Source: a virus
Length of the DNA stretch: 29,609 nucleotides
IMG/VR virus record: IMGVR_UViG_3300030451_006822
Coordinates: 1 to 29,609 of that record
Direction: 5' to 3' (one strand)
Shown: piece after piece, positions 6,071 through 23,401 of the stretch
How positions within the stretch are numbered: position 1 is the stretch's first letter
Layout of the letters: every line of letters begins with the position of its first letter
Made by a program: the position numbers and the translations under genes
Notes under the pieces: model-generated
The model's database searches: none
The model's input: the letters and a program-made list of their open reading frames with translations, nothing else
Told to the model about the DNA's origin: nothing

Positions 6071-7108
6071 TTATCTCAAGCCTGTTGACTCAAATACATC
6101 TCTAGCTACTCCTGCTGTAAAGCCTCCTTCAACACCCTTTACAATAACTGATACAGCGTTATGACTGTGAAGACTCTCATTATGAGAAGCTACAATCTTG
6201 AAGTCCGTAATGCGTGACTCATTAGTAAGCTTATCGTAGAGTAATCTTACCGCATCCTCTACAAACTTCAAGTAAGCTCCATTCTTTTCTGCAAATGCTT
6301 GCTCATCTTCTCTCTTTACCATAACTTGAGTTTCAGTTTGAAGAGCTTCTAGACACAACTCTTGAAGATCTTCTATCCATAACATCTCATCAAACTTAAC
6401 ACTGACACGTGCTACACTTCTTTGACTATGAGGTACTGTTGCCCTATTACGATATTTTTCGGCATGTTCACTTAACTCAAAGCTACATGGACAAGCAGAT
6501 GAATAAACAAAATCAAAATGAATATATTTTTTAAATTCTCCATCTTTAGTTAAATCACCTTCAAAAACAACATCATAATATTGATAGCCTTCTAGACCAC
6601 TACGTAAACTCTTTTGTCTAATAGGATATGAAATCTTCAACATAATACGTGAATCAAAAGATTTAAGATTATTTTTATATGTCTCTAATACATCTTTGAT
6701 CTTATCAATACTAAACGTCTCATCCTTATGATCATAAAAGCTTCTCATAATGCGTGACATATTAATACCCTTCTTATGAGCTTCTAAACTAACACTACCT
6801 GTAACGCTAGTCTCTAACTCAATTGTCTTACCGTTACGTTTTTTATAAGTTAATGGAAGCTTAAAATTATGGATACCGACTTGTTGAATAGGTACAGCAG
6901 CACCTTGAATTAAGCTCGACGGACCATTCTGCAAATCCGGTAAGGAAGAGATATACTTTTTATCAGCATTAACCTTCGTATCATATACTCTAATAGGAGG
7001 AAAATAACTCTTACTATATTCATCCCCCATGATTTCCTTAGCGATAGTATCCTTCTCGCCTGTCAATTCATCATCATCACCGAGCCATTCATAAGTAACG
7101 TCACTCAT
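6071..7108 (-). CDS. folE2: GTP cyclohydrolase FolE2 (type IB)
   Basis: This 345-residue enzyme of the FolE2 family converts GTP to 7,8-dihydroneopterin triphosphate. That is the first step of both folate and 7-deazaguanine (preQ0/queuosine) synthesis. Motifs seen are KGINMSR (about 113-119, usually RGxHMSR), [12 protein letters not shown] (205-216) with the metal/catalytic cysteines, and VPHSQRS (225-231). It is somewhat longer than typical FolE2, mainly through an acidic N-terminal extension. I chose the ATG at 7108 (MSDVTYEW) over a much longer upstream reading frame, which overlaps the divergent gene and has no conserved sequence. The chosen ATG also lies 8 bases after a sigma70 -10 box. 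It belongs with queD-like and queE at 7479-8824. Confidence 0.9.
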
Positions 7109-7111
7109 ATG

Positions 7112-7119
7112 CATAAATA
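7112..7119 (+). promoter_or_regulatory. Late-type promoter motif CATAAATA upstream of the 7151 gene
   Basis: CATAAATA begins a 16-base string (7112-7127) identical to 2825-2840. It points toward the 7151 gene, 31 bases before its ATG. The motif overlaps the minus-strand -10 box of folE2. Confidence 0.45.
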
Positions 7120-7144
7120 ATAATATATAATAAATTATTTTCAA
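7117..7144 (-). promoter_or_regulatory. Sigma70-type promoter for folE2 (leaderless geometry)
   Basis: On the minus strand, TTGAAA (7139-7144), a 16-base spacer and TATTAT (7117-7122) lead to the ATG at 7108 after 8 bases. This spacing matches the other early promoters in the window and supports the MSDVTYEW start. Confidence 0.6.
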
Positions 7145-7150
7145 GTAAAA

Positions 7151-7447
7151 ATGTTTAACTTTGATTACAGTATTAATAATTTGATGCACCAAATACATGC
7201 TAAACCAGCTGTACCGCGTGTGATAATGATCCAAAAAATTGAGTCTAGATTTGATGAATTTAAAAAATTCGCTGCACAAGATTTGATGAGTGAAGATAAC
7301 TTATCGGAAAACTCTGCGGAAATACAGCAAATTTTAAATGCCTCAAATATGGAAGCTCTAAAAACATTTTTACGTCAGAATGGGTATTGTACAGATGGTA
7401 TAAATAAATTGCAGCAACGGTTCATTCTTAACGTATTTGATAGTTGA
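7151..7447 (+). CDS. Hypothetical small helical protein
   Basis: I do not recognise this 98-residue, predicted mostly helical protein. The start [20 protein letters not shown] is followed by acidic and amphipathic stretches ([20 protein letters not shown]). There is no membrane span or signal peptide. A late-like motif lies 31 bases upstream, and an AATAAATT variant (7129-7136) lies nearer. Its stop codon overlaps the -35 box of the queD-like gene. It sits between the divergent folE2 and the queD-like/queE pair, but nothing in it suggests a pterin role. Confidence 0.6.
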
Positions 7448-7471
7448 ACTTATTTCATATGCATATATAAT
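7444..7471 (+). promoter_or_regulatory. Sigma70-type promoter for queD-like/queE (leaderless geometry)
   Basis: TTGAAC (7444-7449), a 16-base spacer, then TATAAT (7466-7471), with the ATG at 7479 after 7 bases. The same boxes and spacings occur before the 14346 gene. Confidence 0.8.
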
Positions 7472-7478
7472 TTTGTAT

Positions 7479-8027
7479 ATGTCTTTTGAGAGTACTAAAG
7501 TTATTGATCTAGGTAGTTGTGCCTTCAGACAACCTCAAGCAGAGAGTCATTGCAAATTTATTCATGGATATAGACTTAAAGCTAAGTTTTGGTTTACAGC
7601 TGATAAATTAGATAAGAATCATTGGGTTGTTGATTTCGGCGGTCTAAAAGAACTTAAAAAGCTTTTAGAAAATCAATTTGATCACACTACATGTATTGCT
7701 TTTGATGATCCTAAAAGAGCAGTTTTTGAATCACTGCATGGAGAAGGTATTCTAGATTTGCGTATAATGCCTCGAGGTACTGGTATTGAGCGTATTGCAG
7801 AGTGGTGTTATGAGGCTGCCAACAATCATGTTATTAAACTTACTGATGGTAGATGTAAATGTAGTAAGGTTGAAGTGTGGGAACATGAAAATAACAGTGC
7901 AATTTGTACAGGCATAGTAGATTCTATTAAAGAAGATAGTGAACAACTCTTATTAGAAGATTTTGTTAAAGAACAACCACCTAGTGAAGAAAAGAGTACA
8001 TGGGATTTAGGTACAAAATGGATATAA
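7479..8027 (+). CDS. queD: QueD-like 6-carboxytetrahydropterin synthase homologue with altered zinc ligands
   Basis: This 182-residue protein matches the QueD/PTPS fold. SCAFRQPQAESHCKFIHGYR (13-32) corresponds to the Cys and HGH zinc region, VVDFGG (50-55) to the conserved VDF, and FDHTT (67-71) to the catalytic DH motif. QueD makes 6-carboxytetrahydropterin from dihydroneopterin triphosphate. Two of the usual three zinc histidines are changed: the His of the AAH motif is Arg/Gln, and HGH reads HGY. From memory a similar variant exists in alphaproteobacteria, so this may be a subfamily with another metal site or activity. I chose the ATG at 7479 because it starts the conserved sequence and follows a promoter by 7 bases. 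It overlaps queE by 10 bases. Confidence 0.8.
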   Translation: MSFESTKVIDLGSCAFRQPQAESHCKFIHGYRLKAKFWFTADKLDKNHWVVDFGGLKELKKLLENQFDHTTCIAFDDPKRAVFESLHGEGILDLRIMPRGTGIERIAEWCYEAANNHVIKLTDGRCKCSKVEVWEHENNSAICTGIVDSIKEDSEQLLLEDFVKEQPPSEEKSTWDLGTKWI

Positions 8028-8824
8028 AAGAAAAAACTGCAACATTAAATTTATCTGAACATTTTTATTCTGTTCAGTGTGAAGGAGCTTCAACTGGTTA
8101 CCCTGCTTATTTTATTAGACTTAAGGGATGTAATCTTATGTGCGGAGGTAAGGATGGCAGCTTAATGAAGGAAGGTAAAGCTACTTGGTGGTGTGACTCT
8201 GAAGCTGTATGGCGTCAAGGCAAACAAACTAGTTTTGATGTATTAATTGATGCGTGGAAAGAGCAAAATATCTTAGAATGGATACTTAACGGGAGAGTAC
8301 ATCTTATATGGACTGGCGGTGAACCTACTATGAAAAAACATCAAGAGTCAATTGTATCTTGTATTAATTATCTTGAAAGTGATTGTGAAGGTGATGAGTT
8401 TGATAATATAGATTATTTTAATCCTATAAATTTATATAATGAAGTAGAAACTAACGGTACTCAATATATTGAGGATGAGTTTTTTAATAAATTAGATCAG
8501 ATTAATTGTAGTGTTAAGTTGGCTAACTCAGGTATGAGTAAACAAAAACGTATTGTACCTGAAGCTTTAGAACGTATTATATCTCATAAAGGACATTGGT
8601 TTAAGTTTGTTGTGAGTACAGAAGAAGATTTAGATGAAATTGAGAATGATTTTATTAAACCTTTTAATATTGATCCTAAACGTGTATTAATGATGCCCGG
8701 TCTTGACCATCAAGATAATTTTCATGAAAGAACTAAGTTTATTCTCGAGTTAGCTGGTAAACATGGTTATATTGGCTTAACAAGATTACACATTTCTGCG
8801 TGGAATCAGACAACAGGAGTATAA
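8018..8824 (+). CDS. queE: QueE-like 7-carboxy-7-deazaguanine synthase (radical SAM)
   Basis: This 268-residue radical SAM enzyme converts 6-carboxytetrahydropterin to 7-carboxy-7-deazaguanine. The N-terminal YSVQCEGASTGYPAYFIRL and GCNLMC (37-42), with the third cluster cysteine at WWCD (C59), give C-x3-C-x16-C rather than the textbook CxxxCxxC; the SAM motif TGGEP follows near residue 100. An insertion between the second and third cysteines is a known QueE trait. The start at 8018 (MDIKEK) overlaps the queD-like gene. Frames running upstream add only unconserved residues. No QueC or DNA transglycosylase lies in this window, so the final product (modified DNA, or altered host tRNA) is not shown. 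Confidence 0.88.
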   Translation: MDIKEKTATLNLSEHFYSVQCEGASTGYPAYFIRLKGCNLMCGGKDGSLMKEGKATWWCDSEAVWRQGKQTSFDVLIDAWKEQNILEWILNGRVHLIWTGGEPTMKKHQESIVSCINYLESDCEGDEFDNIDYFNPINLYNEVETNGTQYIEDEFFNKLDQINCSVKLANSGMSKQKRIVPEALERIISHKGHWFKFVVSTEEDLDEIENDFIKPFNIDPKRVLMMPGLDHQDNFHERTKFILELAGKHGYIGLTRLHISAWNQTTGV

Positions 8825-11824: not shown

Positions 11825-12625
11825 ATGACACCTAAAGTAGGTATTGGTATTATTACATGTAATAGGGAAAAATTCTTTAGAGAATGTCTAAAGAGTGTTT
11901 TGAAGTCTCGAGTAGATGTTATTGTAGCTGTTAACGATGGTAAAGTATATGATAGCAATATACCGGGCATTAAGAAGATAAATTTTATACAACACCAGGA
12001 AAATAAAGGTGTTGGTGTATCTAAGAATGAGGCTTTAAAATATCTTTATGATTTAGGCTGTGAACATATTTTCTTAATTGAAGATGATATTATTATTAAA
12101 GACCCTGAAGTATATTATAGATATATTGATCTAGCAAAGGAGTCAGGCATATGGCACTTAATGTATGGTTATCATGGTCCTGCAAATAAAACCCAAGACA
12201 AAAAACCTAATCCAAGAATTGTAGTAGAATATAAAAATACTAAACTTGCTCTTAATCATCATTGTGTAGGTGCATTCTGTTATTATCATCGTAATGTAAT
12301 TAAGACTGTAGGTTATAATGATGAAGCATTTGTTAATGCATGGGAGCATGTTGAGCATAGTTATAGATGTGTTAAGACAGGATTATTACCTGGCTATTGG
12401 TGGTGGCCGGATGTTGCAAACAGTTATGATTTGTTAGATGAGCAAGCATGTAGTGAAGATAATTCTGCTATTAGACCTAGATCAGATTGGCAAACAAATA
12501 TACAAGAAGGTGCTCAACACTTTACTAATAAGCATGGACACTCTCCCGTTTCAGTTCCTAATCTCACCCAAAATAATATACTTGAAAGATTAAAATTTAT
12601 TAATAAACATTATAGTAAAGCATGA
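11825..12625 (+). CDS. GT-A glycosyltransferase (family 2-like)
   Basis: This 266-residue protein opens with VGIGIITCNREKFFRECLKS, the family-2 pattern. HQENKGVGVSKNEAL follows near residue 58 and the DxD-type metal/nucleotide site FLIEDDIII near 88. The C-terminal half, with GYWWWPDVANSYD, probably forms the acceptor site. No membrane helix is seen, so it acts in the cytoplasm. It is the first gene of the carbohydrate block under its own early promoter, and its stop overlaps the next start (ATGA). Donor and acceptor cannot be told. Confidence 0.82.
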   Translation: MTPKVGIGIITCNREKFFRECLKSVLKSRVDVIVAVNDGKVYDSNIPGIKKINFIQHQENKGVGVSKNEALKYLYDLGCEHIFLIEDDIIIKDPEVYYRYIDLAKESGIWHLMYGYHGPANKTQDKKPNPRIVVEYKNTKLALNHHCVGAFCYYHRNVIKTVGYNDEAFVNAWEHVEHSYRCVKTGLLPGYWWWPDVANSYDLLDEQACSEDNSAIRPRSDWQTNIQEGAQHFTNKHGHSPVSVPNLTQNNILERLKFINKHYSKA

Positions 12626-13050
12626 GTGATAGAAAATACCTTCCAACGTTTGCTGAGCTTTTAGATAGAATGACTATTTGTCAGCTTAAAGCAATTTTTA
12701 TCCCTGAAAATAAAAACGCATATGATAAAGAAATAAGTGATATCAAACATGATTTAGATCAAATTATTAACGAAAAAGATGTTAAAGTATCAGCTGAGAT
12801 GATTCGAGCTATTTGTGTTGTTATGTTATCAAATAGATATATTTGGGAAAATGAGAGTAAATGCAGGAGTGGTACAGATCAAGATCTATCATTACTTAAA
12901 TTAACTCACTCCATTAATGGTGTACGTAATGTTGCCAAAAATGTTATTTCAAAAGAACTAGGTGAACGCGTTGATCTTAAGACAGATTGTTTAGCAGCTG
13001 AACTTAAATCAGACTTTCAAAACTGGGATATTTTTAAAGATGAGTCTTGA
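12622..13050 (+). CDS. Hypothetical helical protein of the carbohydrate block
   Basis: This 142-residue, predicted all-helical protein is not recognised. Distinct stretches are LLDRMTICQLKAIFIPENKN, DIKHDLDQIINEKDVKVSAE and LLKLTHSINGVRNVAKNVIS. It overlaps the upstream glycosyltransferase by 4 bases and the downstream DUF962-like gene by 11, so it is translationally linked to both. It may be an accessory subunit or regulator of the first glycosyltransferase, which is inferred from position only. Confidence 0.65.
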   Translation: MSDRKYLPTFAELLDRMTICQLKAIFIPENKNAYDKEISDIKHDLDQIINEKDVKVSAEMIRAICVVMLSNRYIWENESKCRSGTDQDLSLLKLTHSINGVRNVAKNVISKELGERVDLKTDCLAAELKSDFQNWDIFKDES

Positions 13051-13348
13051 TGAATATTATAAAAGTTATTTGAAATTGCATAAAAATAAAAATTGTATTC
13101 GCATGCACGTCTTAGGTCAATTAGTAACTATTTCATATGTTATAGCTGTATTAATTGCAGCGTATATATATGACGTTAAATATACAGTCTTATTGTTATT
13201 ATCTCCATTTGTTGTATACCCGTTCGCATGGGCTGGTCATTACTTTTTTGAAAAAAATAAGCCAGCAGCTTTTTCTAATCCTATTAAAGCAAAAATATGT
13301 GACTGGAAAATGCTTTATGATATAATAAAGGGTAAAATTAAATTATGA
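13040..13348 (+). CDS. Mpo1/DUF962-like membrane protein
   Basis: This 102-residue protein has two membrane helices (about 26-44 and 48-64). The conserved residues of the DUF962 (YGL010w/Mpo1) family are present: H14 with N18 and H23 in LKLHKNKNCIRMH, then WAGHYFFEKNKPAAF with H67, E71 and N73. The DWKMLYDI ending is also typical. Yeast Mpo1 is an iron-dependent dioxygenase that shortens 2-hydroxy fatty acids. Bacterial members are mostly uncharacterised. In a phage carbohydrate operon it could modify lipid A-type or other membrane lipid, or a polyprenyl carrier, but no substrate is visible. It overlaps the epimerase start (ATGA) at 13345. Confidence 0.75.
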   Translation: MSLDEYYKSYLKLHKNKNCIRMHVLGQLVTISYVIAVLIAAYIYDVKYTVLLLLSPFVVYPFAWAGHYFFEKNKPAAFSNPIKAKICDWKMLYDIIKGKIKL

Positions 13349-14286
13349 GTAAAATTCTTATTACAGGTGGTGCGGGCTATATTGGTAGTGTTCTTACAGG
13401 GATGCTTTTGCAGCGCACTAATGAAGTAACCGTTATTGACAATCTTATGTATGGTCAATCTTCTTTAACTAACTTATGTTCATATAAAGGGTTTAATTTT
13501 ATTGAAGGTGACGTAAGAGATAAAGCTTTGTTAGAAGAGCAAGTCAAAAAACATGATGTAATTATACCGCTAGCGGCTATTGTAGGATTTCCAGCTTGTG
13601 AGAGAGACAAACAATTAGCAACTGCAGTCAACTATGAACACGTAAGTGATATCTGTAAGTGGGCTTCTTCTAACCAAAAATTAATTTATCCTAATACAAA
13701 TAGTGGTTACGGAGTAGGCGAGGATGATACATTATGTACAGAAGAAACTCCTTTAAGTCCTATTTCACATTATGGAGTTACTAAGTGCCAAGCAGAAGCT
13801 AATATTCTTAGTAAGGGAGGCATTTCATTAAGACTAGCAACCGTGTTCGGTATGTCACCGCGTTTTAGAAATGACCTGCTCGTTAATGATTTTGTTTATA
13901 GAGCATTTGATGATGGGTTTATTGTCTTGTTTGAGAAGCATTTTAAACGCAATTTTGTTCATGTAATAGATGTATGTGATGCTTTTATCTATATGAAGAA
14001 CCATTATGAAAAAGCAAAAGGAGAAGCATATAATGTAGGTCTTTCATCTGCTAACTTGAGTAAGCTTGAGTTATGTGAAAAGATTAAAGAATATGTTCCT
14101 GGTTTTGCAATTCTATCAGATGATATTAATACAGATCCGGATAAAAGAAATTATATTGTATCTAGTGAAAAAATTGAAAAGCTTGGATGTAAAGCTCGTG
14201 TATCCCTTGATGATGGTATTCAAGAACTTCTAAAAGCCTACCCAATGGTCCGTAAAGTTAAAAATAGTAACTATACAAATCTATAA
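13345..14286 (+). CDS. NAD-dependent sugar epimerase/dehydratase (extended SDR)
   Basis: This 313-residue protein has the Rossmann motif TGGAGYIG (7-14). The typical SDR PLAAIVGFPACERD segment follows, then NTNSGYG, and the catalytic pair in HYGVTKCQAE (Tyr-x3-Lys). The C-terminal half binds the sugar nucleotide. The sequence differs from GalE and from the next two genes, so it likely handles another nucleotide sugar. It could fill the HldD-like epimerase role for the HldE-like genes downstream, but this cannot be decided. It overlaps the DUF962-like gene by 4 bases and ends 59 bases before a fresh promoter. Confidence 0.82.
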   Translation: MSKILITGGAGYIGSVLTGMLLQRTNEVTVIDNLMYGQSSLTNLCSYKGFNFIEGDVRDKALLEEQVKKHDVIIPLAAIVGFPACERDKQLATAVNYEHVSDICKWASSNQKLIYPNTNSGYGVGEDDTLCTEETPLSPISHYGVTKCQAEANILSKGGISLRLATVFGMSPRFRNDLLVNDFVYRAFDDGFIVLFEKHFKRNFVHVIDVCDAFIYMKNHYEKAKGEAYNVGLSSANLSKLELCEKIKEYVPGFAILSDDINTDPDKRNYIVSSEKIEKLGCKARVSLDDGIQELLKAYPMVRKVKNSNYTNL

Positions 14287-14345: not shown

Positions 14346-15320
14346 ATGGATCTTAATAATAAGCGCGTGTTGGTAACAGGCGGAACCGGTATGATCGGAC
14401 AAGAAGTTGTAAATAAAGTTTTACAACGTGGTGGAGATGTTATTGTTGCTTCTAACGAAGATGAAAATAGATTAGGCTTAGATGTTGAATATGTAAAATG
14501 TGATTTAAGAGATTTTGAGACATGTAAGCAGATAACAAAAAACATTGATGTTGTTTTTAACATGGTCGGTGTTAAAGGTTCTCCTAAAATGACTAAAGAA
14601 AGGCCGGCTAGTTTTTTTGTACCTATGCTTCAGTTTGATACTAACATGATGGAAGCAGCAAGATTAAATGATGTTGGTTGGTTCCTGTTTACAAGCAGCG
14701 TTGGTGTATATGGCGATTTTGAATCACCAGAAGATAAAGTATGGGATGATTTTCCATCACCTAATGATTGGTATGCAGGTTGGGCGAAGAGAATGGGAGA
14801 GTTGCAAGCGTCTGCATATAGCACTCAGTACGGCTGGGATCGTGTAAGCATTATTCGTCCTGCTAATGTTTTTGGTAAGTATGATAATTTTAATCCAGAG
14901 ACAGGCATGGTAATACCGTCATTAATGGCTCGAATTGAGTCTGGGGAAGATCCATTAGTCGTATGGGGTGATGGTTCAAATATTAGAGATTTTATTTACG
15001 CAGGTGATGTGGCGGAGATATGCTGCTTTTTAGTAGAAAATGAAATTACATCTCCTGTTAATGCTGGTCGTGGTTGGGGTATTACAATTAAAGATGTTGT
15101 TACTAGCATTGTTGAAACAACAGATAAAAATCCAGATGTGGTATGGGACACAACAAAACCGTCTGGAGACAAAAAGCGAGTATTAAACGTTGAACGTCTT
15201 AAAAAGTTAGGTTTTGAGAATTATACAGCATGGCCTGATGCGCTAAGATGGACATGGGAGTGGTATAAAGAACATAAAGAAACAGTTGATAATCGATATA
15301 ATCCTTTTATTAAAGTATGA
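14346..15320 (+). CDS. GDP-fucose-synthase/ColC-like NAD epimerase-reductase, copy 1
   Basis: This 324-residue extended SDR starts VLVTGGTGMIG (8-18). FTSSVGVYGD carries the SDR Ser, and PANVFGKYDNFNPETGMVIP plus VVWGDGSNIRDFIY are typical of GDP-L-fucose-synthase-like 3,5-epimerase/4-reductases. The active-site Tyr and Lys lie in WYAGWAKRM as Y143-x4-K148 instead of Tyr-x3-Lys. The next gene shares the same GWxKR frame, so the two are paralogues of one subfamily. In colitose synthesis the last enzyme, ColC, belongs to this group. First gene after a strong promoter; its stop overlaps the next start (ATGA). Confidence 0.82.
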   Translation: MDLNNKRVLVTGGTGMIGQEVVNKVLQRGGDVIVASNEDENRLGLDVEYVKCDLRDFETCKQITKNIDVVFNMVGVKGSPKMTKERPASFFVPMLQFDTNMMEAARLNDVGWFLFTSSVGVYGDFESPEDKVWDDFPSPNDWYAGWAKRMGELQASAYSTQYGWDRVSIIRPANVFGKYDNFNPETGMVIPSLMARIESGEDPLVVWGDGSNIRDFIYAGDVAEICCFLVENEITSPVNAGRGWGITIKDVVTSIVETTDKNPDVVWDTTKPSGDKKRVLNVERLKKLGFENYTAWPDALRWTWEWYKEHKETVDNRYNPFIKV

Positions 15321-16300
15321 GATTCAAGAATAAAATTGTAACAGTCTGTGGAGGGACAGGGTTTATTGGTCTTAACGTTGTTAAAGGCTTATTAAAAACA
15401 GATGTAGCTAAGGTTATTGTTACATCACACACAAAGCGTCCGTATTACTATGATGATATTTTATCTGATCCGCGAATCGAACATCATGTGTGTGATTTAA
15501 CAACTAGTGAACACTGTGATAAAGTTACAAAAGAATCTGATTACGTTGTAATATCTAATGCGGTTTCTTTCGGAGCTCTATTCATCCAAAATAACCCTCT
15601 AGGTCTAGTAAATGATAATATTATTATGAACGTTAGACTCTTAGATGCATGCATGAAAAATGGTGTTGAAAGAGTAGTTTATTATGGCAGCACGACAGGT
15701 TATCCTGATACTAGTGAAGAAATGGTAGAGGATGATATGTTTACAGGAGACCCGCATGACAAGTATTACAGCGTAGGTTGGATGAAAAGATATACTGAGG
15801 TACTTTTAAAGTTATATGCAGAAAAATTAAACATACTGTCAGCTGCTGTTTTAAGATTATCAAACGTATATGGTCCGTATGATAAGTTTGATCCTGACAC
15901 ATCTCACGTTTTACCTGCTATGGTGAAAAAATTTGGTGATGAACAATTTCCGTTAGAAGTTTGGGGTGATGGTACAGATTCACGAGATTTAATTTATGTT
16001 GAAGACGTTGTTGAAGCTACCCTATTAGCCTTAGAGAATGTAAAAGGTTTCCAGGCTTTAAATATCGGGTCAGGTATTAATCACACTGTTAATGATATTA
16101 TTAATATTCTTAAGAAAGTAAAGAGTGTAGAACCTGAGCTTGTTTATTTAACAGACAAGCCGCGAATGATTGCTAAAAGAGTTGTTAATGTTGATAAAGC
16201 AGCAAAAATTTTAAATTTTAAACCTGTAGTAGATATCGATAGTGGATTAAAAATGACAATGGAGTGGTATCTCAATAATAAAGAAAAGATTTACCGATGA
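15317..16300 (+). CDS. GDP-fucose-synthase/ColC-like NAD epimerase-reductase, copy 2
   Basis: This 327-residue paralogue of the preceding gene has VTVCGGTGFIG (8-18), YYGSTTGYP with the SDR Ser/Thr, and LSNVYGPYDKFDPDTSHVLP. EVWGDGTDSRDLIYVEDVVE is characteristic of the GDP-fucose-synthase-like group. Catalytic residues are likely Y150/Y151 and K157 in KYYSVGWMKRY, a longer spacing than in most SDRs. Two such enzymes in tandem suggest either two products from one 4-keto-6-deoxy intermediate or a heteromeric enzyme. Start and stop both overlap neighbours (ATGA on each side), so the operon continues without a break. Confidence 0.82.
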   Translation: MRFKNKIVTVCGGTGFIGLNVVKGLLKTDVAKVIVTSHTKRPYYYDDILSDPRIEHHVCDLTTSEHCDKVTKESDYVVISNAVSFGALFIQNNPLGLVNDNIIMNVRLLDACMKNGVERVVYYGSTTGYPDTSEEMVEDDMFTGDPHDKYYSVGWMKRYTEVLLKLYAEKLNILSAAVLRLSNVYGPYDKFDPDTSHVLPAMVKKFGDEQFPLEVWGDGTDSRDLIYVEDVVEATLLALENVKGFQALNIGSGINHTVNDIINILKKVKSVEPELVYLTDKPRMIAKRVVNVDKAAKILNFKPVVDIDSGLKMTMEWYLNNKEKIYR

Positions 16301-17280
16301 AAACATTTAAACGAGCTTTTATTACTGGGATAGCAGGAAGTGGTGGTAGCTATCTTGCGGAACATATACTTGATAATGTGCCAGGTGTTGAGGTAGGAGG
16401 TACAAGTAGATGGCATAGTACGACTACTCCACGTAACTTAAATAGAATAAAAGATAAAATTGACTTATTCAGCTGCGATCTTACTGATCTTGGAAGAATA
16501 ACAAGAATATTAGACCAGTATAGACCTGACGTAATATTTCATATTGCATCATTAGCTAATGTTAGAGATTCATTTGACAATCCTATAGCTGTTATTAACA
16601 ATAACATTAATATTACGTTAAACTTATTAGAAGCTGTGAGGATTCTCAAAGAGCAATCTGACTATAATCCTGTCATACAGCTATGCAGTACATCAGAAGT
16701 ATATGGCGATGTGGATCCTGACAACGTACCTATTAATGAATCGTGTCCAATACAACCTGTTAATCCATATGCATCTTCAAAATTATGCCAAGACAATTTA
16801 GGCTTAGTATATTATAAAAGTTTTGGGTTGAATATTATTAGAACAAGAATGTTTACCTATCTAAATGCTCGTAGAACAGATTTGTTTGCTACAGCATTTG
16901 CCAAACAGATTGTTGAGATCGAGAAAGGTGAAAAGGATATACTCCGTCACGGGAACTTAGAATCTGTACGTACTTTGATTGATGTTAGAGATGCTGCAGA
17001 TTCATATTGGATAGCAGCTGCAGCAGGCACGCCTGGAGAAGTATATAATATCGGTGGAGAGTATCCTGTTAAAGTAGGAGAGTTTTTAGAACAACTTAAA
17101 AATTTCTCATCTGTTGAAATTAAATCTGAAGTTAATCCAGACTTACTACGCCCAGTAGATGTTACTTTACAAATACCTGACTGTACCAAATTTAGAGACC
17201 ATACAGGCTGGAAACCTAAATATAAACTAGCTGAAAGTGTTGAATTCTTCTTAAAAGAGATTAAACTTATTTATGGTTAA
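16297..17280 (+). CDS. gmd: GDP-mannose 4,6-dehydratase/RMD-like SDR
   Basis: This 327-residue SDR has RAFITGIAGSGGSYLAEHIL (6-25), the GSYLAE of GMD/RMD enzymes, then DLTDLGRITRILDQYRPDVI. Active site TSE (132-134, in STSEVYG) with Tyr158-x3-Lys162 in PYASSK fits a 4,6-dehydratase. The C-terminal RPVDVTLQIPDCTKFRDHTG matches GMD and its relative RMD (GDP-4-keto-6-deoxymannose reductase). GMD turns GDP-mannose into GDP-4-keto-6-deoxymannose, the substrate of ColD-type enzymes, and a ColD homologue lies 1.1 kb downstream. The Thr/Ser-Glu pair favours dehydratase over reductase, but RMD cannot be excluded. The MKTFK start runs straight into the Rossmann strand and is not a capsid leader. Confidence 0.8.
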   Translation: MKTFKRAFITGIAGSGGSYLAEHILDNVPGVEVGGTSRWHSTTTPRNLNRIKDKIDLFSCDLTDLGRITRILDQYRPDVIFHIASLANVRDSFDNPIAVINNNINITLNLLEAVRILKEQSDYNPVIQLCSTSEVYGDVDPDNVPINESCPIQPVNPYASSKLCQDNLGLVYYKSFGLNIIRTRMFTYLNARRTDLFATAFAKQIVEIEKGEKDILRHGNLESVRTLIDVRDAADSYWIAAAAGTPGEVYNIGGEYPVKVGEFLEQLKNFSSVEIKSEVNPDLLRPVDVTLQIPDCTKFRDHTGWKPKYKLAESVEFFLKEIKLIYG

Positions 17281-17884
17281 GCTGACAGCCAAAGATTTAT
17301 TAAATTTTGAAGAAGATATAGCATCAGAATTTAATAATTCAAATATTAAAGCTCCTGTGCATCTGTATAATGGCAATGAACAGGAGATGATTGATGTTTT
17401 TTCTACCATTAATAATGATGATTGGGTTTTATGTACATGGAGAAGTCATTATCAATGCTTATTGAAGGGTGTACCTAAGGAAATTGTTAAAGAAAAGATA
17501 ATGTCAGGAGGGTCTATGGCACTATGTTTTCCAGATTATAATATTTTTTCCTCGGCTATTGTAACCGGTATTTTGCCTATAGCTGTAGGTCTGGGGCTTA
17601 GTCTTAAAAGAAGACAGGAAGATCATAGAAAGGTACATTGCTTTGTTGGAGATATGACTGCTTTGACAGGGTCTTTTAATGAGTGTTTAAGGTATTGTGA
17701 GCAACATGATTTACCTGTACGTTTTATTATTGAAGACAATGGTAGATCGGTTTGTACAACAACAAGCGAAGTATGGAATTATAATAAGCATCCATATTTA
17801 GACGTAGACAATAAACATATTGTTTATTACAAATATGAGTCTAAATGGCCTCATGCAGGTGCTGGAAAGAGAGTACAATTTTAA
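17273..17884 (+). CDS. Thiamine-diphosphate enzyme, PP-domain subunit (E1-alpha-like, short)
   Basis: This 203-residue protein consists of the ThDP pyrophosphate-binding domain only. GGSMALCFPDYNIFSSAIVTG leads to AVGLGLSLKRR and then HCFVGDMTALTGSFNECLRY, with IIEDNGRSV closing the GDG-x(about 25)-N motif (GDM and DN variants). True pyruvate dehydrogenase E1-alpha subunits are 330-400 residues and bring an E2 partner, and none is seen here. The stop overlaps the next start (TAATG), and that gene supplies the complementary Pyr domain. It sits between a GMD-like and a ColD-like gene, so a role in building a branched or unusual sugar is more likely than central metabolism. Substrates are unknown. 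Confidence 0.8.
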   Translation: MVKLTAKDLLNFEEDIASEFNNSNIKAPVHLYNGNEQEMIDVFSTINNDDWVLCTWRSHYQCLLKGVPKEIVKEKIMSGGSMALCFPDYNIFSSAIVTGILPIAVGLGLSLKRRQEDHRKVHCFVGDMTALTGSFNECLRYCEQHDLPVRFIIEDNGRSVCTTTSEVWNYNKHPYLDVDNKHIVYYKYESKWPHAGAGKRVQF

Positions 17885-18414
17885 TGAAATATTTTGATGA
17901 AATAAAAAGGTCAATGACATGGCTAGGCGAACAGTCTGATACTATTTTTCTCGGACAAGCTGTTTCATATAAAGGTACTGCTATGACAAATACACTACCT
18001 GATGTACCGGATGATAAAAAGATAGAAATGCCAGTCTGTGAAGATCTTCAAATGGGTATAACAAATGGATTAGCTCTCGAGGGTTATGTACCTGTTTCTA
18101 TTTACCCGCGATGGAATTTTTTTGTTTTAGCTGCTAATCAAACAATAAACCATCTAGATAAAATTAATCTTCTTGGAGAATATGGTGTTAAGGCAATATT
18201 AAGAACAGGTATCGGATCCGAGAGACCATTACATCCTCACTATCAACACGTTGGAGATTATACTGATGCATATAAAATTTTATGCCCTAACATGGAAGTA
18301 ATAAGACTGGATGAACCTGAGGAGATATTTGAATCTTACCAAAAAGCATATATGAGAGATGATAATAAGTCAACTTTAATTGTTGAATGTATGGATTTTT
18401 ATAACGAAAAATGA
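17884..18414 (+). CDS. Thiamine-diphosphate enzyme, Pyr-domain subunit (E1-beta-like, short)
   Basis: This 176-residue protein is a pyrimidine-binding (transketolase-Pyr) domain. MPVCEDLQMGITNGLALEGY carries the conserved Glu that activates ThDP, followed by VPVSIYPRWNFFVLAANQTI as in E1-beta subunits. The C-terminal transketolase domain of normal E1-beta (about 325 residues) is missing. Together with the previous gene it forms a minimal two-domain ThDP enzyme, in size like sulfopyruvate decarboxylase ComD/ComE. The ATG at 17884 (MKYFDEIKRS) overlaps the upstream stop by one base. A 39-base-longer frame adds only out-of-register sequence. The stop overlaps the colD-like start (ATGA). Confidence 0.8.
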   Translation: MKYFDEIKRSMTWLGEQSDTIFLGQAVSYKGTAMTNTLPDVPDDKKIEMPVCEDLQMGITNGLALEGYVPVSIYPRWNFFVLAANQTINHLDKINLLGEYGVKAILRTGIGSERPLHPHYQHVGDYTDAYKILCPNMEVIRLDEPEEIFESYQKAYMRDDNKSTLIVECMDFYNEK

Positions 18415-19598
18415 GCTATAATATACCTTTAATGTCTGATAACGTTACTCGCGAAGATATCAACGAGTTAATTACATTTTTACAGCAGGACCCTTTACCT
18501 AGGCTTACTAATGGTCCTAAGGTCGAAGAATTTGAGAGAGCATGGTCAGACTGGTTAGGCGTAAAACACTCTATCTTTGTTAATTCAGGTACAAGCGCAA
18601 ATTATATGACCATGCAACTATTGAGATATTTGCATGGTCCTTGTGATATTATCGTACCACCTCTTACATGGGTATCCGATATTGCAAGTGTTATTAATAA
18701 TGGCCATAATCCTGTATTTGTAGATATTAATTTATCAAATCTTAGTTTTGATATTAATAAGCTTAAAGAAGCAATTACTTCTAACACTAAAGCTATTTTC
18801 TTGACTCACGTTCTTGGACTTAATGGCATTACAGATGAGCTATTAGCTCTATGCTCTGATAAAAATATTATGCTTGTTGAGGATGTGTGTGAATCTCACG
18901 GTGCTACATATGAAGGTATGAAAGTAGGAACTATTGGTCAGATTAGCAATTTCAGTTTTTACTTTGCACACCATATGTCCACTATTGAAGGGGGCATGGT
19001 ATGTACTAATGATGACAAACATTATGATTTGCTAAGAGCATTTAGATCTCATGGTATGCTTAGAGAGTGTAAAGATCAAACGTTTAAAGAATGTGTTACA
19101 CATGCACACGAAGATTTAAATCCTGATTTTATATTTTTGTCACCGGCATATAATTTTAGAAGTACAGAGCTTAATGCTGTGCTTGGTATATCTCAGCTTA
19201 AAAACTTAGATGATAACAACAAAAAGAGAGTTGATAATTTTGACTTCTTTATGTCTAATCTAAATGATACCAAATATATTACTAATTTAAATAGAACCGG
19301 TCAATGTAATTATGCTTTTATTGTTATATTACGCAAACCCGATATAGAAGAAAGAAATAAAATTGAGACAATGTTACGTGAGAATAACATTGAATTCAGA
19401 AGAGGATTATCAGGCGGTGGTAACCAGCTAAGACAGCCGTATATTGAAAGATATGGTTTTGATGTAAGCGATGAAAAATTAGCATCTCAATTTGCAAACG
19501 TTGATCATGTACATAACTATAGTTGGTATATTGGAAATTATCCATCATTAGAGAGAGAAAAAATTACCAACTTACTTACATTACTAAATGAGCAATAA
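18411..19598 (+). CDS. colD: ColD-like GDP-4-keto-6-deoxymannose 3-dehydratase (PLP, His in place of Lys)
   Basis: This is a 395-residue DegT/DnrJ/EryC1/StrS-fold enzyme. NSGTSANYM (58-66) binds PLP phosphate, VEDVCESHG (156-164) carries the PLP-pyridine Asp, and FSFYFAHHMSTIEGGM (181-196) holds the active site. The Schiff-base lysine of aminotransferases is His at 188, as in ColD (His188 in the E. coli enzyme, from memory). ColD uses PMP to remove the C3 hydroxyl of GDP-4-keto-6-deoxymannose on the route to GDP-colitose. The related RfbH/DdhC/E1 dehydratases are longer (about 437) and hold an iron-sulfur cluster, so ColD fits better. The GMD-like and ColC-like genes upstream complete a plausible pathway. 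Confidence 0.87.
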   Translation: MSYNIPLMSDNVTREDINELITFLQQDPLPRLTNGPKVEEFERAWSDWLGVKHSIFVNSGTSANYMTMQLLRYLHGPCDIIVPPLTWVSDIASVINNGHNPVFVDINLSNLSFDINKLKEAITSNTKAIFLTHVLGLNGITDELLALCSDKNIMLVEDVCESHGATYEGMKVGTIGQISNFSFYFAHHMSTIEGGMVCTNDDKHYDLLRAFRSHGMLRECKDQTFKECVTHAHEDLNPDFIFLSPAYNFRSTELNAVLGISQLKNLDDNNKKRVDNFDFFMSNLNDTKYITNLNRTGQCNYAFIVILRKPDIEERNKIETMLRENNIEFRRGLSGGGNQLRQPYIERYGFDVSDEKLASQFANVDHVHNYSWYIGNYPSLEREKITNLLTLLNEQ

Positions 19599-21322: not shown

Positions 21323-22237
21323 ATGAAACTTTATATTTATCCAAAAGGTAGACAGCAGGATGCAGAAGTTGATGGGTGGCGAACTAATACGACTCCCTTG
21401 TCAGAGGAAGGGCTAAAAAAACATTGCGAAATAGTTCCGTATGAAGAAGCAGATTATTACTATATAGGTCAATTATCATGTGGTACTATGCAACATATTT
21501 CGCCGAATTTTTTTGAACATCTAAATAAAAATCCTAACAAGCACATAGCAGCAATAGAGGGAGATTGGGAAACAAGCGTTATACCTGACTGGGGATTACA
21601 ATGTATTTTGTTTGGTAATGAAAACAAATATAACAAAAAGGACTTCATGACAAGACCTTCTATGAGTCCTCTCTTATTACATCTTGTCAGAAATTATAAT
21701 AATATACAATATGAAAATAAAATACCTGACAACAAGTCGTTTGGTTTTCGAGGTCAAGTCGACCCTCATGGGGTAAGAATTAAGATAGATAGAATTTTAA
21801 AAGGTAATAACTTACCTCATGAGATATTATGGAACGCACACTGGGGCTTAGTACATGATTTAAAAGCAAATAATGCTTTTATTCAGGAATATTCCCGCGT
21901 AATGGTTGAGAATATTTTTTCTTTATGCCCTCGGGGAGTAGCAAATTGCTCAAGCCGACATTACGAAACATGTTTTTTTGGGAGAATACCTGTCATTGTA
22001 GGTAATATAATGATGCTAGGTGACGATTACTACGATATGTCTTTTATGTATAAGATAGATCCTGCATTACCTGATGAGGAAATGTTAAATGAATTTAATA
22101 AAATTTATAATACTCCAGTTAAAGAACTGCATGAGAGATGTCATGCGGCTCGTCAATATTTTGAAGATGTCATTATAAAATACTACGAAGATCCAACATT
22201 ATTTTTTATTAATTTTTTAAAGAGACATAACCTCTAA
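21323..22237 (+). CDS. Exostosin-family (GT47-like) glycosyltransferase
   Basis: This 304-residue protein is recognised by its C-terminal SLCPRGVANCSSRHYETCFF followed by GRIPVIV. That is the exostosin motif (CPRG...S.R..EA...G.IPVI) that binds the nucleotide sugar in GT-B-fold GT47 enzymes. The N-terminal half (MKLYIYPKGRQQD; EEADYYYIGQLSCG) matches the short first domain of bacterial exostosin-like proteins. No signal peptide or anchor is present, so it is cytoplasmic. It is followed directly by the HldE-like kinase (TAATG). Donor unknown. Confidence 0.78.
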   Translation: MKLYIYPKGRQQDAEVDGWRTNTTPLSEEGLKKHCEIVPYEEADYYYIGQLSCGTMQHISPNFFEHLNKNPNKHIAAIEGDWETSVIPDWGLQCILFGNENKYNKKDFMTRPSMSPLLLHLVRNYNNIQYENKIPDNKSFGFRGQVDPHGVRIKIDRILKGNNLPHEILWNAHWGLVHDLKANNAFIQEYSRVMVENIFSLCPRGVANCSSRHYETCFFGRIPVIVGNIMMLGDDYYDMSFMYKIDPALPDEEMLNEFNKIYNTPVKELHERCHAARQYFEDVIIKYYEDPTLFFINFLKRHNL

Positions 22238-23016
22238 TGGACACCAAAAGCAAATCTATATTATTAGTCGGAGATTCATGTGTAGATAAATATGTTTATT
22301 GTAAATGTTCTCGTCTCTGTCCTGAAGCGCCTGTACCTGTTTTAGATATAAAAGATACTGTTCAAAATAGGGGTATGGCTGGTAATGTTCTAAGAAACAT
22401 GGGAGTGTTTCCCTCAATTAGTATTAAGTTTTATACTAACAAAAATCACCGATCAATTATTAAAACTAGATATGTTGAAGAAAAAACTAATCATATGTTT
22501 ATAAGAATTGATACAGATAATACACCAACATCGTTTTTTAAGGATATAAGAGATACAATAAATTATGATGATTATACTGCAGTTGTAATTTCTGATTATG
22601 ATAAGGGTTATATTACAACTGATGATGTTGAGTATATTACACAAAGACATCCATTAACGTTTATGGATACAAAGAAAGAATTGGGCGAATGGGCCAATGA
22701 TGTTAGTTTTATAAAAATTAATCGGTTCGAGCGTCGAGATACTGAAAGTACATTAACAGATAAATTAAAAGATAAAATTATTACAACATTAGGTGGAGGT
22801 GGCGCGGTATATAAAAATAAAAAGTATGAGGTTGAAGATGTTGAAGTAAAAGATGTTTCTGGAGCGGGTGATTCTTTTCTTTCAGCACTAGTTATTAGTT
22901 ATATTAAAACAAATGATATTAATCAAAGCATCGAGTATGCTAATAAATGTGCATCTTACGTTGTAACTAGAAAAGGTGTTAGTATAATTGATGTTACAGT
23001 TATTGACAATGAATAG
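22237..23016 (+). CDS. HldE-N-like PfkB sugar kinase (split HldE)
   Basis: This 259-residue ribokinase-fold enzyme resembles the kinase half of HldE/RfaE. ILLVGDSCVDKYVYCKCSRL (9-28) is followed by CPEAPVPVLDIKDTVQNRGM, matching the HldE TSRISPEAPVPV and GGAANVA region, with GGA altered to GMA. The catalytic Asp lies in KDVSGAGDSF. It is about 50 residues shorter than HldE-N. HldE-N phosphorylates heptose-7-phosphate at C1. Whether the substrate here is a heptose is unknown. The nucleotidylyltransferase half is a separate gene overlapping by 8 bases. GmhA and GmhB are not in the window. Confidence 0.82.
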   Translation: MDTKSKSILLVGDSCVDKYVYCKCSRLCPEAPVPVLDIKDTVQNRGMAGNVLRNMGVFPSISIKFYTNKNHRSIIKTRYVEEKTNHMFIRIDTDNTPTSFFKDIRDTINYDDYTAVVISDYDKGYITTDDVEYITQRHPLTFMDTKKELGEWANDVSFIKINRFERRDTESTLTDKLKDKIITTLGGGGAVYKNKKYEVEDVEVKDVSGAGDSFLSALVISYIKTNDINQSIEYANKCASYVVTRKGVSIIDVTVIDNE

Positions 23017-23401
23017 AGTTATATTTACTAATGGGTGCTTTGATATACTGCATAGAATGCATATTGAACTTTTAACATTTTGCAAAAGCCGAGGTGATTA
23101 TGTTGTAGTTGGCCTTAACAGCGATAGGAGTGTTAAAATGTTGAAAGGTAATAATCGCCCAATATTTTGTCAGGAAGATAGAAAAAAGGTTTTAGAGAGT
23201 CTTGAGTGTGTCGATGAAGTGGTAATATTTGATGACGAAACACCATATAATCTAATTAAAGAACTAAAGCCGGATGAGATTGTAAAGGGTGGAGATTATA
23301 AAGTTGAAGATGTAGCAGGTCATGAGTTTGCACCTGTTATTCTTTTTGACTATAATACTGATTATTCAACAACAAAAGCACTTGAAAAGCTAAATTCTTA
23401 G
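23009..23401 (+). CDS. HldE-C-like nucleotidylyltransferase with HRMH motif
   Basis: This 130-residue protein corresponds to the ADP/cytidylyltransferase half of HldE. VIFTNGCFDILHRMH (4-18) is the nucleotide-binding loop, and SLECVDEVVIFDDETPYNLI then PDEIVKGGDYKVEDVAGHE follow the HldE order. The HxGH motif reads HRMH: both histidines (H15, H18) remain, but the Gly is Met. This is unusual and may affect nucleotide choice or activity. The ATG at 23009 overlaps the kinase stop by 8 bases, and a start 21 bases upstream only adds unconserved residues. Together the pair would turn a sugar phosphate into an NDP-sugar for the glycosyltransferases. Confidence 0.8.
   Translation: MNRVIFTNGCFDILHRMHIELLTFCKSRGDYVVVGLNSDRSVKMLKGNNRPIFCQEDRKKVLESLECVDEVVIFDDETPYNLIKELKPDEIVKGGDYKVEDVAGHEFAPVILFDYNTDYSTTKALEKLNS

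Follow-up and report, generated by a model that had tools for sequence, protein, structure and literature searches.

In the 29,609-nucleotide stretch of viral DNA analysed here (IMG/VR record IMGVR_UViG_3300030451_006822, positions 1 to 29,609; hereafter the window), which belongs to a marine-type phage, two short genes encode the PP and Pyr domains of a thiamine diphosphate (ThDP) enzyme and are followed by a gene for a ColD-like sugar 3-dehydrase. On the basis of comparative analysis, we propose, with a probability of roughly 0.78, that the pair is a decarboxylative carboligase which would add an acetyl branch to C4 of a nucleoside diphosphate (NDP)-3,6-dideoxy-4-keto sugar. The genes are tightly packed: those for PP and Pyr share TAATG (17882-17886), those for Pyr and ColD share ATGA (18411-18414), and the ATG of the PP gene (17273) overlaps the stop of the upstream gene (16297-17280), called GMD in the initial annotation. 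The arrangement described there, with short PP (203 aa) and Pyr (176 aa) genes overlapping each other and colD, agrees with these coordinates.

The PP protein matches Pfam E1_dh (1.7e-11, profile positions 6-171 of 300) and the Pyr protein Transket_pyr (2.4e-8). In NCBIfam they resemble, far below the cut-offs, the E1-alpha and E1-beta subunits of pyruvate dehydrogenase (PDH), and together they align to a single fused PHROG family, phrog_34187, whose function is unassigned in PHROGs. Among relatives, the ThDP motif GD(126-127)...N(156) and H59 are conserved in PP, and E53 and H122 are invariant in Pyr, aligning with the Glu of 'SEMG' and the His of 'QHSQ' in human PDH E1-beta. The pair thus carries both the GD...N motif and the glutamate for the aminopyrimidine by which a ThDP enzyme is recognized. 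The nearest PDB folds of the AlphaFold2 model of PP (predicted local distance difference test, pLDDT, 90.7) are the E1-alpha subunits of PDH and of branched-chain 2-oxoacid dehydrogenase (BCKDH), with TMq up to about 0.80; those of the Pyr model (pLDDT 93.1) are the E1-beta subunits of PDH and BCKDH (TMq 0.86) and also the minimal two-subunit AzcB/AzcC. Homology to E1-alpha and E1-beta is therefore divided between two subunits, as in the 2-oxoacid dehydrogenase E1 and alphaKADH2 enzymes. Among Pfam profiles, the Transketolase_C domain of ordinary E1-beta found no match in the Pyr protein, and the pair lacks the single-chain TPP_enzyme_N/M/C arrangement of YerE-like enzymes. The pairing is not a matter of chance, since some 100 non-redundant viral loci retain both halves, whose distance matrices are correlated (r 0.89). 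PP and Pyr would form one ThDP enzyme with its active site between the subunits, probably a minimal E1 relative from which the E2 partner and the E1-beta C-terminal domain have been lost.

The most frequent companion of the pair is a sugar dehydrase. Within 8 kb of the pair, in 99 non-redundant loci, the commonest neighbour was a DegT-family protein (76 loci), and in all but two of these proteins His replaces the catalytic Lys. ColD and RfbH, in which His stands for Lys, are 3-dehydrases and not aminotransferases. When the Lys/His type was assigned by alignment, such a 3-dehydrase was found near 79 of 101 non-redundant pairs, as compared with 11 of 54 control phage heptose loci (Fisher p 3e-12). 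The control loci are anchored on one gene family, the HldE-C nucleotidyltransferase, because, when the window GMD alone served as query, the viral scan returned a single weak relative. Dividing the dehydrases by length, with proteins above 425 aa taken as RfbH, gave 64 loci with ColD, 12 with RfbH and 3 with both; the RfbH-type dehydrase of L162, which adjoins an RmlB-like 4,6-dehydratase, passes the NCBIfam cut-off. The pair accompanies two different dehydrases, whose shared element is the 3-deoxy-4-keto type of product. The window dehydrase (Pfam DegT_DnrJ_EryC1, 7e-71) is closer to ColD than to RfbH: its closest PDB entries are ColD structures 2gms/3gr9 (2.7e-48 in phmmer, against 2.3e-36 for 3bcx), it scores 212.7 bits with the RfbH model (cut-off 423), and a residue check across relatives places His at the position of the active-site Lys (HH at 187-188). 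Homologues of the pair are thus not consistently placed beside an unrelated pathway devoid of ColD-like genes, an outcome that the initial annotation had named as counting against it. Its description of the enzyme as locked to colD holds as an association; the word itself is too strong, because pair and dehydrase lie a median of about 1 kb apart and no dehydrase was found at 22 pair loci.

Conversely, ColD is accompanied by ThDP enzymes of various kinds. In a ColD-anchored search seeded from pair-bearing loci, a ThDP enzyme was present in 55 of 56 non-redundant loci, and in the 56th (L245) the Pyr gene of a mini-pair lies farther out on the contig; in control loci without dehydrase the figure was 2 of 44. 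The 55 loci comprise 40 with the mini-pair, 6 with a full-length E1 pair, 5 with a split transketolase (one of them also carrying a JanthE-like enzyme) and 4 with a JanthE/YerE-like enzyme alone. Addition to ketones by ThDP enzymes is known in three superfamilies, namely decarboxylases (YerE, ErwE, JanthE), E1-type alphaKADH2 (AviB1/B2, Pau11/12, KbDH) and transketolases (PMC12247030), and all three were found near ColD in these phages. They share the need for a keto sugar acceptor, and it is for this reason that acetyl transfer to C4 is proposed.

A direct example of such replacement comes from the closest sister phage (L193), which shares about 70-99% identity with the window in the outer flanking proteins. 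There, an aldolase, a B12-binding radical SAM protein, a PanB-type ketopantoate hydroxymethyltransferase and a 623-aa ThDP enzyme stand in place of the short-chain dehydrogenases/reductases (SDRs) SDR2 and SDR3, GMD, PP and Pyr; on its 50-kb contig no mini-pair was found. The 623-aa protein, of TPP_enzyme_N/M/C type as in YerE-like enzymes, is encoded directly upstream of ColD. Its closest PDB entry is JanthE (8rph, 1.7e-87, against 1e-73 for acetolactate synthase), although its GDG motif is the usual one, as opposed to CDG in JanthE. The parallel with YerE drawn initially is strengthened by this finding, as the place of the pair beside ColD is taken by a relative of JanthE, a characterized YerE-like enzyme. 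Both in L193 (7086-9984) and in L236 (4855-7717), the PanB-type gene directly precedes the JanthE/YerE-like one; we would only guess that its product is a hydroxymethylated 2-oxo acid serving as the donor. Two further loci, L213 and L224, each contain ColD with the mini-pair as well as an RfbH-sized dehydrase next to a JanthE-like gene, so that two dehydrase-ThDP combinations appear to coexist in some phages. On balance, we consider it probable that these genes represent a modular phage system that makes branched 3,6-dideoxy sugars: the 3-dehydrase (ColD or RfbH) would be the constant part and the ThDP carboligase the interchangeable one, be it the minimal E1 pair, a full-length E1 pair, a split transketolase, or a JanthE-like enzyme with a PanB-like donor maker.

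The alternation of split transketolases with the pair beside ColD, and the heptose genes (GmhA, HddA, HldE halves) common near the pair, would also fit a ketol transfer. In this reading, hydroxypyruvate or a ketose phosphate would donate a two-carbon hydroxyacetyl (ketol) unit, which the pair would pass to the keto sugar; alternatively, the pair would form a heptulose or octulose precursor. We regard this as unlikely, however: PP matches E1_dh and not Transketolase_N, Pyr is devoid of Transketolase_C, and the best folds are those of E1. Still less probable is that the ThDP enzyme and ColD are merely co-located and serve different sugars of one polysaccharide cluster. Such an arrangement might be expected in large sugar islands with many SDRs and glycosyltransferases, where adjacency is often indirect (pair and dehydrase lie within 100 bp in 24 of 79 loci), but it does not explain the enrichment of the dehydrase over control heptose islands, the swapping of ThDP types next to ColD, the use of either ColD or RfbH, or the gene order kept in a bacterium (see below).

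Several observations weigh against the proposed acetyl branching. The figure of 56 of 56 covers close ColD relatives only, because the seeds came from pair-bearing loci; in 7 of the 11 control loci with a His-type dehydrase no ThDP enzyme was found within the fetched range, and for more distant ColD homologues in phages (S-CAM7, ACG-2014f) no ThDP neighbour is annotated. No His-type dehydrase occurs near 22 of 101 pairs, several of them on short contigs, and the fused pairs of cyanophages S-SM2 and P-TIM68 lie beside a Zn-alcohol dehydrogenase and heptose genes, not a dehydrase. In L193 the slot contains no 4,6-dehydratase. As most IMG/VR contigs are fragments, absences carry little weight, and the counts given here refer to the top-ranking matches retrieved.

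No gene for E2 or E3 was seen among the open reading frames of the window, and in 15 larger pair-carrying phage records (96-358 kb) Biotin_lipoyl and 2-oxoacid_dh found no match, with controls matching in 14 and 10 of 14; the earlier view that an ordinary PDH is unlikely is thereby borne out. The E2 lipoyl/acyltransferase partner that defines a PDH complex is missing, and PDH and acetoin dehydrogenase were rejected on these grounds. That the pair is a remnant pyruvate or acetoin dehydrogenase E1 boosting host energy metabolism is, despite the E1 homology, very improbable, given the same 15 records, the absence of the E1-beta C-terminal domain and the location of the pair in sugar islands wherever neighbours could be named.

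Under the proposed carboligase mechanism, a 4,6-dehydratase and then the ColD-like 3-dehydrase would provide the NDP-3,6-dideoxy-4-keto sugar. The pair would decarboxylate a 2-oxo acid, most likely pyruvate since E1-type precedents appear C2-specific, and add the acetyl-anion equivalent to the C4 ketone. The outcome would be a sugar branched at C4, of the yersiniose or eurekanate type, in which an SDR may then reduce the branch, and which might be used on a glycan of the host surface or the virion, or as a DNA decoration. Other branches would result from the transketolase and JanthE-like replacements.

A separate problem is the identity of the acceptor, which may be a guanosine diphosphate (GDP)-heptose derivative. 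The window 4,6-dehydratase matches GDP-D-glycero-D-manno-heptose 4,6-dehydratase (7us5, 4.9e-56) and GDP-6-deoxy-4-hexulose reductase (2pk3, 7e-55) about equally, as against 6e-31 for GMD (1db3), and for its counterpart in L160 the heptose enzyme is clearly the nearest. The kinases adjoining the pair resemble HddA. GDP-3,6-dideoxy-4-keto-heptose, made by a pyridoxal phosphate (PLP)-dependent C3-dehydratase, is established in Campylobacter (PMC10440746). To judge from sequence, this compound is quite possibly the acceptor, since the L160 dehydratase, the HddA-like kinases and the bacterial HddA/HddC-like/GmhA order all fit; for the window itself a hexose is possible. The branched dideoxyhexose of the initial annotation thus keeps its 3,6-dideoxy-4-keto context, and the hexose part is less secure because the sugar may be a heptose.

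The reaction type is already known (AviB1/B2, KbDH, YerE). Like the pair, the alphaKADH2 carboligases AviB1/AviB2, Pau11/Pau12, EvdU5/EvdS3 and KbDH-alpha/beta are two-subunit E1-like ThDP enzymes; they use keto-sugar acceptors, with pyruvate shown as the C2 donor for KbDH and aldgamycin (PMC4425429, PMC10338323, PMC12247030). They differ in that Pau11 and Pau12 have 325 and 345 aa, whereas the window subunits have 203 and 176 aa and no Transketolase_C, and in that they occur in antibiotic clusters, whereas the mini-pair is found in phages with ColD or RfbH dehydrases. YerE, JanthE and ErwE resemble the pair in the proposed C-branching of a 3,6-dideoxy-4-keto NDP-sugar and in the slot occupied by the JanthE-like enzyme in the sister phage; they are single chains (Pyr-TH3-PP), unlike the E1-like pair with one domain per subunit. 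The window dehydrase shares its fold family and the His for catalytic Lys with its closest solved structures, ColD (GDP-4-keto-6-deoxymannose-3-dehydratase) and the Campylobacter GDP-heptose C3-dehydratases, although similarity to ColD is only moderate (phmmer E 2.7e-48). AzcB/AzcC is likewise a minimal two-subunit ThDP enzyme, but of a different family (13% identity) and reaction. Sulfopyruvate decarboxylase ComDE is also minimal, with one domain in each of two subunits; its family and reaction differ from those of the pair.

Scans of IMG/VR gave, among the matches listed, at least 585 PP-related and at least 513 Pyr-related stretches. PP was directly followed by Pyr in 155 of 179 loci (not de-duplicated), and the two were fused in two cyanophage records among these. 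On the bacterial side, a sample of 398 genomes from the phylum of the single matching metagenome-assembled genome yielded one further bacterial genome; plasmid records gave only ordinary E1-alpha matches. With hundreds of IMG/VR matches and only rare bacterial ones, the family is, in the data surveyed, mostly viral with few chromosomal copies. A complete 5.4-Mb bacterial chromosome (L347, L348) carries, in order, HddA-like kinase, PP, Pyr, ColD, HddC-like, GmhA, SDR1 and B12 radical SAM genes. This cassette lies within about 10 kb of a flagellin gene, near flagellar genes, which suggests flagellin or surface glycosylation. The fused homologue, PHROG_34187 or cyanophage 'transketolase central region-containing protein', is a single chain of 402 aa with PP before Pyr. 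Fused or reversed forms at L020 (S-SM2, 11983-13191), L021 (P-TIM68, 12049-13194) and L176 adjoin the Zn-alcohol dehydrogenase and heptose genes without ColD, unlike the window pair, and perhaps act on another acceptor. In the 735-kb phage LR756501 (L022, 8394-10612), Pyr precedes PP with a 350-aa gene in between.

Among the other neighbours within 8 kb, SDR1 was present in 57 of the 99 loci, a GHMP kinase resembling HddA in 38 and an RmlC-like epimerase in 33. Second in frequency to the DegT-family protein, in 59 loci and adjacent to the pair in 41, was a B12-binding radical SAM protein of roughly 505 aa (as at L035:8456-9994), with AprD4 as its nearest PDB entry; it was not seen in the window itself. 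This frequent neighbour raised phosphonate biosynthesis (ThDP decarboxylase with B12 radical SAM) as a candidate, which was rejected because the pair matches E1_dh best; no PEP (phosphoenolpyruvate)-mutase-like gene turned up among the neighbours scanned, in which no search was aimed at PEP mutase.

Table 1. Sugar-related genes of the window (PMP, pyridoxamine phosphate)
Feature	Coordinates	Strand	Basis
PP-domain subunit (mini E1-alpha) of ThDP enzyme, 203 aa	17273..17884	+	Pfam E1_dh, motifs, fold
Pyr-domain subunit (mini E1-beta), 176 aa	17884..18414	+	Pfam Transket_pyr, residues, fold
ColD-like PMP/PLP-dependent sugar 3-dehydrase, 395 aa	18411..19598	+	PDB ColD matches; HH at 187-188
NDP-sugar 4,6-dehydratase (GMD / GDP-heptose dehydratase family)	16297..17280	+	PDB matches
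SDR (Fcl-like), candidate ketoreductase or epimerase	15317..16300	+	NCBIfam GDPFucSynFcl 3e-37, below cut-off
SDR (Fcl-like), candidate ketoreductase or epimerase	14346..15320	+	NCBIfam GDPFucSynFcl 2.5e-45, below cut-off
SDR1, recurrent companion of pair	13345..14286	+	within 8 kb in 57/99 loci
HldE-like sugar kinase half (heptose route)	22237..23016	+	rfaE_dom_I 1.3e-33
HldE-like nucleotidyltransferase half	22988..23401	+	rfaE_dom_II 9.6e-47

Elsewhere in the window, genes at 6071-7279, 7437-8027 and 8000-8824 resemble by eye FolE2, QueD and QueE of the 7-deazaguanine pathway.

The minimal architecture, the phage distribution and the swapping of ThDP families appear to be new. In the literature searched we found no phage-encoded branched-sugar carboligase, which is not proof of absence. 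The initial annotation had considered a phage-encoded carboligase of two tiny subunits as novel; this would hold for the minimal size and the phage setting, while the two-subunit E1-like type is known from actinobacterial antibiotic pathways, and the family, though one of phages, is not exclusive to them, as the cassette also occurs on a bacterial chromosome. A 2025 review (PMC12247030) lists viruses as one of the sources of ketone-accepting ThDP enzymes that are still unexplored, and the matches reported here offer hundreds of viral candidates, while an unannotated PHROG family gains a testable function. If the proposed reaction is true, phages encode a route to C-branched sugars via a seemingly unusually small two-subunit E1-type carboligase. 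The exchange of differently built ThDP enzymes beside a single dehydrase points to branch-by-branch variation of a surface or virion sugar by phages; if the system is indeed modular, a change of carboligase would give a different branch, and hence a different surface glycan, from the same locus.

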